A model generated the notes under the pieces. It did not search any database and was not told the DNA's origin. It was given only the letters and a program-made list of their open reading frames with translations. 44,857 bases of DNA from Granulosicoccus sp. (lineage in GTDB: Bacteria > Pseudomonadota > Gammaproteobacteria > Granulosicoccales > Granulosicoccaceae): assembly GCA_023301795.1 (NCBI GenBank), contig JALZVU010000081.1, forward strand, positions 1 to 44,857. The letters are read 5' to 3'. The position numbers and the translations under genes are program-made. Position 1 is the stretch's first letter; the number at the start of each line of letters is the position of its first letter. Positions 2,200-5,221 of this stretch are shown here, in pieces.

Positions 2200-2551
2200 A
2201 TTGAAGATTTAACCTCTTTTGAAAATTTTGCTGCCTTTCGGATAATGTACCTGACTTGTATTACTACCAAACTCGATTTCGAACTTAGCATGAGTAATTA
2301 CATTGGATCAACAGGAAATGTTCACGAATTTTTAACATTTCATGTAATTGCTTTCACTTTTTTTTATTGCTCAACAGAATTTTTCAAATTAAGAAAATAT
2401 CGTGAAACAAAGTACACTAAGGAAGAATACTCTCACTCGTGTCGTAACTTTTTACTCTGCGTTTTCTTGCTTTTTTAGTGCAACTTAAATCGCAAGGTGC
2501 AACATAGATCGTTTTATCCTCCATGTGTTTTCACCTTAACAATTGCAGTAA
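2200..2551. other. AT-rich intergenic region, no gene recognised
   Basis: About 350 bases, visibly richer in A/T than the flanks, with several T-runs. It presumably holds the promoter of the esterase on the minus strand. A 110-codon plus-strand frame overlaps the start of the esterase antisense and has no ribosome-binding site or recognisable protein features, so it is not called. Confidence 0.5.
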
Positions 2552-3273
2552 CTACTCAGAAGAAATAGGCGGGTAGGAGATACGTTCGTTGTTTGTGTTT
2601 GCAAAATTTTTTTGCACGAAAGTACCGGTTGCATAGTCGTAGTCTAATAGGCCAGCTTCAAACTGCCGCAGACGCACTTGCTGTAACTCATTTAGCCGCT
2701 CTGAGTTAACGGTCTCATACGATTCCAGTTCATCGTCCGAATAATTTTTTGAATCTATGTTTGACGTATTCTCATAGTCTAGCTCTTCAGGATTTTCCTC
2801 ACTATCTCTTTCAACGTAAGTTTCGGCGTAAGCTCCAATGTACTTTCTGGTTTTGAGGTCGTAGACAAGCTGGCGCTCCTCATTGTATTACGCACGTTGT
2901 TCTTCCAATTCAATCGGGCGTGATTCGGCAGAGTCCTCCAATGTATCTTCGTCGTATTGAGCATTTGAACCGCCGAATTGCACTGGGGTTGTGGAACCAA
3001 CAGGTGTATTTACAAAGTTATAGATCACACGAGTTTCTGTTGGGGGCTCAGATTGAGAACGAAGCGCGACCACCTCTAGCTCTAACGCCAGCAACTCGCG
3101 GTATTGGTCAAGAGTTTCTGTCTTGAGGGCATTCAGCTCTCTCTCAAAGGCGCTATTCTGATTGTTCAGCCGATCAATCTACGAAGGGTATTCTTTCTCT
3201 TCAAGACGATAAGGTAGGTCAGGGTTGTAACGTCAACGGAGGCTGCGTTGAGTGGTATTCAGCGCCGTGGGCG
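2552..3273 (-). pseudogene. Degraded gene with three in-frame stops (Glu/Gln/Asn-rich, coiled-coil-like)
   Basis: Reading the minus strand in one frame gives a continuous, low-complexity-free protein of about 230 residues, interrupted by TGA (3233-3235), TAG (3179-3181) and TAA (2888-2890) and ending at a TAG at 2552-2554. The three stops are exactly in register (54 and 291 bases apart). Sequence on both sides of each stop has the same hydrophilic character: LEEKEYPS, stop, IDRLNNQNSAFERE; then IELEEQRA, stop, YNEERQLVYDLK. Each stop is one C-to-T change from CGA, CAG or CAA. The 5' end is unclear because the frame runs back to the nitrilase stop with no start codon. The ancestral function is unknown; the sequence suggests a charged helical protein. 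Confidence 0.65.
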
Positions 3274-4059
3274 TTATATTGTTTTTGGCAGCTTTAAACA
3301 GTCTTCATGATAAGGTAGGCGCTTTTGTGCCTTACGAACATGTGATAAATCCAGATGCACCAACATGCAGGTGCTGTCGCCTGCTGCACGTGCCAAGTCT
3401 TTACCATTCGGGGCAACGATGCAGCTTCCGCCAAAGTAGCTCATACCGTTTTCGTCACCGCTGTGATTCACGTAGCAAACATACACACCGTTTTCGAAAG
3501 CCCGAGTTGGCATCATGCTCTGAGATACCACACCCCATTGCGCACCCAATGCTGTGGGCACAATCACCAGATCAGCTCCCTGTTTTGCCACTGCACGAAA
3601 AGCTTCTGGAAATTCTGCGTCGTAGCAAATCAACGTAGCAATCTTGAACTCGCCTAATTCAAACTGCGAGTACGCATTACCTGCGGTGAAATAATCCGCC
3701 TCGAACCCCGGAGGCAATAGTAACTTTCGGTGATGGCCTATCATTGTGCCTGTGTTGTCGTAACAAACGGCTGAGTTATAGATCTGTTTGCTATCATTTT
3801 CAGCGTAACCAAAATGTATGGCAATCTGACTCTCGCCTGCCAGCTCTGCGATCTGTCGTGAAAAAGCACCATCACGCTTTTCGGCCCATTGCTGCACGTG
3901 TTCGCCTATGTTGTATCCCGTTAGGAATAACTCTGGCAGCACTACAAGATCTACATTTTCTAATCCATCAACGATGGTGGTTAACCAGTCTATTCTCGAC
4001 TTGGGGCCTACTAGAGACCCGGGTGCCTGCAATGCGGCTATCGTCAATACGTCATGCAT
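3274..4059 (-). CDS. Carbon-nitrogen hydrolase (nitrilase superfamily)
   Basis: 261 residues from the ATG at 4059. The catalytic triad of the family is visible: Glu43 in VVLPELFLTGYN, Lys112 in GHHRKLLLP and Cys145 in TLICYDAEFPEA. These enzymes hydrolyse or transfer at amide or nitrile C-N bonds (amidases, N-carbamoyl hydrolases, omega-amidases). I chose 4059 because it follows the upstream M24 gene's stop (4064) by 4 bases and has a TAAGG 9 bases ahead; a GTG at 4089 would overlap that gene. Tight spacing implies co-transcription and possibly consecutive steps on one amino or guanidino compound. The exact substrate is not readable. Confidence 0.88.
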   Translation of the reverse strand: MHDVLTIAALQAPGSLVGPKSRIDWLTTIVDGLENVDLVVLPELFLTGYNIGEHVQQWAEKRDGAFSRQIAELAGESQIAIHFGYAENDSKQIYNSAVCYDNTGTMIGHHRKLLLPPGFEADYFTAGNAYSQFELGEFKIATLICYDAEFPEAFRAVAKQGADLVIVPTALGAQWGVVSQSMMPTRAFENGVYVCYVNHSGDENGMSYFGGSCIVAPNGKDLARAAGDSTCMLVHLDLSHVRKAQKRLPYHEDCLKLPKTI

Positions 4060-4063
4060 GTAA

Positions 4064-5221
4064 TCAAACCTTACTGAGTAAGATTTCACGCGGATAATCA
4101 GTGATATATTCAGAACCTGTTGCGGTTACAACAACAGAATCACCAATGCGCCCTGCCACGGTCCCATCAATGGAAATACCGCCATCCACAGCAAACGTCA
4201 TTCCCTCTTGCAACACGGTTTTATCCCCTGCCTTTAATTCAGGCGCCTCCAGATACGCGATGCCAATTGAGCGCCCCACGCGATAGCCAGTTTCAAAGCC
4301 GCGTTCTTGGTACACCGCATCAGCGGCGGCGGCAACTTCTTCAGCGAGTACGCCCGGTTTGATACTGGCTATTGCAGCCTGTTGCGCCGCAATAGCAAGC
4401 TCTTGTATATCTCGTGCCTGATCAGTAACATCTTCAATATGGAACATACGATCAAAACCTAGCTTGTATTGTTTGAATTGAGCCATGTTACAAAAGCAAA
4501 AATACACCGGATCAAATTTTTCATAGGTGCGGACACCTGCACGCCTATGCACCATAGAAGTATCTGATCCACTTTGAAGAATCTGCAGGTTATGAATCAT
4601 GGGTGAAACAAAACGATCCCAGCCTTTATCCGTTAAAAACGACGCTGATTTTCTAGACCCTGCGTTTATCACCGCCAAAGCGGACTCATACTCCGGTACG
4701 CCCAGCTTTAAAGAATCATGTGCTGCTGCCATCATGGCCCCGGCAATATCTCCTGCCTGCTTCATCACTGAAATCTCAAACGCTGACTTGATCACGCGTA
4801 GCTCGGCCAACACTGGCGAGATATCGCTCAGTTTTGCACGGGGGTAGGTGTCCTCCAGAAAATTTCGGACAATGGCCGGAATATAATTGCGCTCTATCCA
4901 GATGTTGCCTGACACTTGCCCGATGATGTCGCCTAAAGCACGCCCCCAGCTACGCTGCCCGACATCCTCCCATACACGCACATCCTCAACCCAGGTCATC
5001 GTGCTAACCATCTCAGATTCCATGAGAGGCGTGACGACAATGGGAGCCTCGTTAGCATCAACGACCAACAAGGTCGGCCGCCCGAAGTCGATACCCAGAT
5101 ATCCCCAGAAACCGGCTAGATACGCTATGGAGCTTTCGTCGGTAAATACAGCTTTACTGATATTTTGCTGCCGCATGCGTTCTTGCAGCTTCAGGGTTCG
5201 TTGTTGAGCTTCTTCAAGCAC
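4064..5221 (-). CDS. M24-family creatinase / Xaa-Pro-peptidase-like protein lacking most metal ligands
   Basis: 385 residues with the creatinase-type N-terminal domain (about 1-135) and a pita-bread C-terminal domain. Comparison with the M24 metal site (Asp, Asp, His, Glu, Glu) shows only Asp237 plausibly kept. The GHGIG block reads GRSIG (His to Arg316), the EPG block reads AVDGG (Glu to Asp346) and the last ED reads GD (Gly360, Asp361). His225 in SMVHRR matches the catalytic-His position used by metal-free creatinase. This points to a non-peptidase hydrolase of the creatinase/ectoine-hydrolase type, but activity is inferred. It is the first gene of a two-gene unit with the nitrilase-superfamily hydrolase. 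Confidence 0.8.
   Translation of the reverse strand: MLEEAQQRTLKLQERMRQQNISKAVFTDESSIAYLAGFWGYLGIDFGRPTLLVVDANEAPIVVTPLMESEMVSTMTWVEDVRVWEDVGQRSWGRALGDIIGQVSGNIWIERNYIPAIVRNFLEDTYPRAKLSDISPVLAELRVIKSAFEISVMKQAGDIAGAMMAAAHDSLKLGVPEYESALAVINAGSRKSASFLTDKGWDRFVSPMIHNLQILQSGSDTSMVHRRAGVRTYEKFDPVYFCFCNMAQFKQYKLGFDRMFHIEDVTDQARDIQELAIAAQQAAIASIKPGVLAEEVAAAADAVYQERGFETGYRVGRSIGIAYLEAPELKAGDKTVLQEGMTFAVDGGISIDGTVAGRIGDSVVVTATGSEYITDYPREILLSKV

Follow-up and report, generated by a model that had tools for sequence, protein, structure and literature searches.

Gene layout and family assignment

The stretch of DNA analysed here (the window) comprises 44,857 nucleotides of a Granulosicoccus sp. genome (contig JALZVU010000081.1) and carries two adjacent genes on its minus strand. 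The upstream gene (4064..5221) encodes an M24-fold protein of 385 amino acids, assigned from the Pfam families PF00557 and PF01321, an AlphaFold2 (AF2) model and fold matching; it starts with GTG at 5221, with a GGAG motif 7 bases upstream, and ends with a TGA at 4064. The downstream gene (3274..4059), which starts with ATG at 4059 and ends at 3274, encodes a nitrilase-superfamily amidase/amidohydrolase of 261 amino acids, as judged from Pfam PF00795, an AF2 model and a conserved triad. The Peptidase_M24 and Creatinase_N domains of the first protein scored 92 and 60 bits, over the gathering cut-offs, and the CN_hydrolase domain of the second scored 164 bits. The nearest relatives of the M24 protein are found in two Granulosicoccus assemblies.

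Exactly 4 bases separate the stop codon of the M24 gene from the start of the nitrilase gene, as had been stated in the initial annotation. An AAGG at 4069..4072 (minus strand), within the 3' end of the M24 gene, is the likely ribosome-binding site of the nitrilase gene, and judging from the bases themselves such sites are plausible for both genes. A longer nitrilase reading frame beginning with GTG at 4089 was found to be unsupported; most homologues start 0-12 bases from the M24 stop. Directly 3' of the nitrilase gene lies an acidic frame (2540-3280, minus strand), which is interrupted by three in-frame stops (TGA, TAG and TAA) and looks like a pseudogene. In the window itself, the pair has no transporter, regulator or sox gene next to it.

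Metal site and fold of the M24 protein

An intact M24 paralogue from the same genome, with D222, D233, H297, E326 and E340, served as the reference for the metal ligands. On alignment, all five ligand positions (D, D, H, E, E) were found to be replaced in the M24 protein: Cys242 (4496..4498) and Gly255 (4457..4459) occupy the first and second metal-Asp positions, Arg317 (4271..4273) the metal-His position, and Asp346 (4184..4186; Glu in creatinase) and Gly360 (4142..4144) the first and second metal-Glu positions, all on the minus strand. The initial annotation had described a loss of the His and Glu ligands; this was borne out and extends to the whole site, and the intact two-metal site that it had named as contrary evidence does not appear in the alignments. 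The five replacement residues are invariant in 81 main-family and 6 sister-subfamily sequences (Cys242 in 87 of 87), and the signature CFC...KLGFDR is also kept in seven further plasmid-borne members. Since the replacement set is conserved, simple decay of the metal site is unlikely. The protein lacks the five ligands of M24 metallopeptidases and has the pita-bread fold together with Creatinase_N; the ligand loss rules it out as an intact peptidase. In plasmid records the family is labelled Xaa-Pro peptidase, a name that is misleading because the metal site is lost, and this widespread family is almost certainly not one.

His225 (4547..4549, minus strand) is invariant and falls at the position of creatinase's catalytic His in the profile alignment to 1chm. 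It had earlier been read as the mark of a C-N hydrolase; the residue is indeed kept, but EutD and an intact PepQ-like protein were both found to carry its equivalent, and hence it is no such mark when taken alone. The first metal-Asp position, Cys242 here, holds Glu in EutD and Asn in creatinase. EutD works through a covalent Glu intermediate, and Cys242 may be the nucleophile of the M24 protein.

The AF2 model of the M24 protein (pLDDT 91, pTM 0.90) was compared with solved structures at the level of alignments and overall fold, and its closest matches were creatinases (Z 41.6-41.9, the best being 1chm at 41.9), followed by a metal prolidase (Z 39.8) and EutD (39.4), with EutD/DoeA and prolidase at 39-40. 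A PDB search with the family profile likewise put the creatinase 1chm at the top (E 8.5e-84). As creatinase and ectoine hydrolase, both metal-free, are among the closest folds, the best reading of sequence and model is that the protein would be a metal-free C-N hydrolase of the creatinase/EutD type and not a peptidase, in agreement with the C-N hydrolase that had been proposed.

The likeness to creatinase (1chm/7yto) comprises the pita-bread fold, the absence of a metal site, the His at the catalytic position and an FGRP motif, and carboxylates occur at two further pocket positions, though these are Asp in the M24 protein and Glu in creatinase. The two differ in that they share only ~22-25% identity, that Arg and Cys stand in the M24 pocket where creatinase has His and Asn, and that the CFC loop of the M24 protein contains a two-residue insertion. 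A separate bona fide creatinase is encoded in the window's genome (locus L129, 9026-10252; 529 bits to 7yto). Its pocket set consists of H237, N254, E267, H329 and E363; in the M24 protein only the His is identical, with N254, E267, H329 and E363 corresponding to C242, D257, R317 and D346. Because the same genome holds this canonical creatinase, creatine is doubtful as the substrate.

The ectoine hydrolase models TIGR02993 and NF038259 gave the M24 protein 88.3 bits (cut-off 613) and 107.4 bits (cut-off 575), and the Glu at the first metal position that is a feature of EutD (E228 in the EutD of locus L099) is absent, being Cys242. These scores, far below cut-off, and the residue test ruled out an identity as ectoine hydrolase, and since the EutD/DoeA models are so far under cut-off, ectoine itself is an unlikely substrate. 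The M24 protein adds to the creatinase fold another metal-free type, distinct in sequence, and the pathway is apparently undescribed. At L028 (9202-10353) and L143 (726-1883) a second M24 protein without a metal site was observed; it lies closer to DoeA (189-190 bits, cut-off 575), has Glu at the first metal position and precedes an amidase in Roseibium and Mesorhizobium.

The nitrilase-family partner and its exchange

Both the fold and the Glu-Lys-Cys triad of the nitrilase superfamily were found in the second protein, with Glu43 (3931..3933) and Lys112 (3724..3726) as the catalytic Glu and Lys and Cys145 (3625..3627) as the catalytic nucleophile, all on the minus strand and conserved. Along with E120, these residues are invariant (66-67 of 67 homologues). 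The AF2 model (pLDDT 94.7) resembled amidases, formamidases and N-carbamoyl hydrolases to much the same degree (Z 32-36, maximum 36.2). When the protein was scored against family models no named equivalog family fitted, so that its exact substrate is unreadable from sequence.

A scan covered 84,980 species genomes, and its 80 best-scoring loci, with 66-84% identity, were retained. The nitrilase gene lies directly downstream of the M24 gene in 67 of these 80, mostly 0-6 bases apart, a count that applies to close relatives because the loci are the best-scoring ones in this range of identity. It rules out chance adjacency, and it agrees with the earlier expectation that the two genes would be neighbours in other species. 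Another 12 loci (Roseibium, some Ruegeria and two deeper lineages) carry no nitrilase gene and have instead an amidase-signature enzyme of the AtzE type, and neither partner adjoins the M24 gene in four main-family loci. The well-supported branches of the M24 tree force at least four changes between the nitrilase and the AtzE-type amidase. Since two unrelated amide hydrolases are exchanged, the product of the M24 protein is implied to carry an amide or ureido group, and this exchange is the strongest sign that it does. A comparable exchange has been described for N-carbamoylputrescine, where a nonhomologous, GatA-related amidohydrolase replaces the canonical enzyme (PMC12283126).

The best models for the alternative partner were those of AtzE (PRK09201/TIGR02715), with 323-355 bits, which do not reach the cut-offs of 426-461. 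A conserved open reading frame of 67-72 amino acids was found upstream of this amidase in all eight loci aligned, in the position that AtzG takes before AtzE (PMC6219798). Similarity to AtzG was sought in the small frame and not found, nor did it match any entry in Pfam, NCBIfam or the PDB. The arrangement is like that of AtzE/AtzG (1-carboxybiuret hydrolase) in having an AtzE-model amidase after a frame of ~70 residues, and unlike it in that the amidase loci are without a cyanuric acid context.

Gene neighbourhood in other genomes

A GntR/FCD regulator was found near the M24 gene in 51 of 92 loci, a gene for an EutA-like Asp/Glu racemase in 28 and TRAP transporter genes in 19-23 of the same 92. 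The EutA-like protein has both active-site Cys residues, a trait of racemases and maleate isomerases. Among the four nearest solved relatives of the TRAP solute-binding protein is the ectoine binder TeaA (PDB entries 2vpn and 3gyy).

Genes for sarcosine oxidase adjoin the pair or occur close to it in Roseibium (L028, L030 and L051), Aliiroseovarius (L057) and Notoacmeibacter (L068), adjoin a sister M24 gene in one genome from the family to which the window belongs (L109), and are adjacent or nearby also in Roseovarius, Aminobacter, Mesorhizobium and Rhizobium, rhizobial plasmids included. They are often accompanied by purU, folD or serine dehydratase. Plasmid records from Roseovarius pelagicus and Aminobacter contain EhuABCD-like genes, LysR, M24, EutA-like, SoxB and SoxD genes. 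The Mesorhizobium amorphae plasmid record holds M24, EhuABCD, a second M24, the small frame, the amidase, SoxBDAG, a lyase, serine dehydratase and purU; Rhizobium plasmid records have similar gene sets, and in Paraburkholderia phymatum M24, the small frame and the amidase occur with an ABC transporter. Co-location with sox genes was seen at least 11 times in at least 7 lineages, against ~1 expected by chance; this expectation is a rough, informal estimate from ~two SoxA genes per genome and about 105 windows of 20 kb. In the window's genome, two SoxA genes score over cut-off.

Around members of the sister M24 subfamily, sox genes and EutA occur but no nitrilase or amidase gene; therefore, the second hydrolysis is not universal. 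Another M24-like gene of the window's genome adjoins an EutA-like racemase gene (L130, 7489-9460), from which it follows that pairs of M24 and racemase genes recur in several M24 subfamilies.

Several further arrangements were observed. In Leucothrix pacifica (L097, 1-10869) the pair lies inside a ten-gene same-strand operon, together with genes for a HyuB/caprolactamase-like protein, a DAO-type oxidase, an HpaI aldolase, an aspartate transaminase-like protein, an SDR and an OYE-type reductase. In a Rhodobacterales assembly the pair is preceded, at a distance of 12 bp, by a urate oxidase gene of the PuuD type (L079, 5471-6691); a purine or urate route was considered and rejected, as this upstream urate oxidase is not repeated at any other locus. 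Three-subunit sets of the CO-dehydrogenase/xanthine-oxidase-like type, a type assigned from subunit lengths and order, were seen within 5 kb of the M24 gene at L052, L059, L086, L110 and L127. Molybdenum hydroxylase genes lie near 6-7 of the 92 loci, three of which form one Roseovarius clade, and this is not clearly above background. In Paracoccus thiocyanatus (L087, 3321-5867) an open frame of 849 residues, beginning in the upstream DctM region, shares its reading frame with the M24 gene; this is probably an overlapping frame and not a true fusion, since the upstream part is not membrane-protein-like in that frame.

The initial annotation had suggested a short catabolic route. Its catabolic nature is upheld by the neighbouring uptake, regulator and sarcosine oxidase genes; "short" may fit this genome only, as the two genes are not the whole route in other species.

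Proposed route and alternatives

By a small balance, we favour the reading that the pair forms a two-step hydrolase module acting on an imported small N-methylated guanidino, amidino or cyclic-amidine acid. By analogy, it would work like EutD and EutE on ectoine, or like agmatine deiminase and N-carbamoylputrescine amidase, on a different zwitterion. After uptake of this small zwitterion, the M24 protein would cleave a C-N bond of an N-methylated guanidino, amidino or cyclic-amidine carboxylate; the invariant His225, Asp257 and Asp346 would fill a creatinase-type pocket, Cys242 may act as the nucleophile, and the product would retain an amide or ureido group. The nitrilase-family enzyme, or elsewhere the AtzE-type amidase, would then remove that group, a step to which the gene exchange lends support. 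What is released, sarcosine or a closely related N-methyl amino acid, would finally be oxidised by SoxBDAG, with folate C1 recycling, from genes that lie elsewhere in the window's genome or are adjacent in other species. For the substrate class, which we infer along with the bond cut and the nucleophile, a guanidino compound is plausible, and an amidine, a cyclic amidine or another amide-forming substrate would be the alternatives. The neighbouring racemase points to a chiral intermediate; creatine or sarcosine would require none.

The agmatine route offers one parallel, in that a C-N hydrolase (AguA) is followed by a nitrilase-family ureido amidase (AguB) that can be replaced by an unrelated amidohydrolase (AguY). 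As a hypothesis, the M24 protein might deiminate a guanidine as agmatine deiminase does. The fold of AguA is unrelated to M24, and the window's nitrilase reaches 91.2 bits with the AguB model (TIGR03381) against a cut-off of 410.

The other parallel is with EutD/DoeA and EutE, where a metal-free M24 hydrolase also stands beside an amide hydrolase, with TRAP or Ehu uptake and an EutA-like gene. In the present family the partner is a nitrilase or an AtzE-type amidase, and sarcosine oxidase takes the place of the diaminobutyrate genes. A direct version of this parallel appears rather unlikely: its substrate would be an ectoine analogue, which might bear an N-methyl or hydroxyl group, the M24 protein would open the ring to give an N-acyl diamino acid, and the nitrilase would serve as deacylase. 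The EutA-like gene, the TeaA-related TRAP binder, the EhuABCD transporters, the DoeA-like second M24 protein in Roseibium and Mesorhizobium and the fold match to EutD all point towards such a cyclic-amidine substrate, and pairing with an amide hydrolase follows the logic of ectoine degradation (PMC8739950). Against this, the EutD/DoeA models stay at 88-107 bits with cut-offs of 575-613, EutD's Glu is Cys242 here, and the described ectoine gene cluster is without sarcosine oxidase (PMC8739950).

Less probable still is a second creatine or creatinine route, with the M24 protein acting as amidinohydrolase or deiminase of the creatine type and the nitrilase yielding sarcosine directly as an N-carbamoylsarcosine amidase. 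In its favour, fold and profile searches both rank creatinase first, sarcosine oxidase, purU and folD are neighbours, and the Leucothrix operon has a HyuB-like gene; however, a canonical creatinase is already present in the genome, H329, E267 and E363 of creatinase are R317, D257 and D346 in the M24 protein, and the adjacent racemase is left unexplained. A further reading is highly improbable, namely that the M24 protein is a peptidase of degenerate or atypical kind, or else no hydrolase at all but, for instance, a lyase, with the nitrilase as a separate housekeeping amidase. The fold is common to prolidases, the plasmid records annotate an Xaa-Pro peptidase and DddP is an M24 fold acting as a lyase, yet the metal ligands are all lost with replacements invariant over 81 sequences, and the protein is tightly paired with an amide hydrolase that comes from one or the other of two unrelated families.

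Within the favoured two-step reading, a more specific form is put forward tentatively, as a possibility that may well not hold: a metal-free guanidine or amidine hydrolase evolved in the creatinase fold, with Cys242, at a former metal-ligand position, as nucleophile, and served by exchangeable amide or ureido hydrolases in an undescribed pathway for an N-methylated solute that marine roseobacters, Granulosicoccus and legume-symbiont plasmids would have in common. Literature searches, whose coverage left out most subscription journals, found no paper on this gene pair, and none tying homarine or trigonelline to these genes.

Biological significance

An M24 protein of this kind with a nitrilase or another amide-cutting enzyme recurs in many marine and plant-associated bacteria, next to genes for uptake and for the removal of N-methyl groups, and the operons of the family point to an uncharacterised nutrient that is used both at sea and on the plasmids of legume symbionts. 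If the proposed route is true, it would add a pathway for dissolved organic nitrogen and a further type of metal-free enzyme in the creatinase fold.
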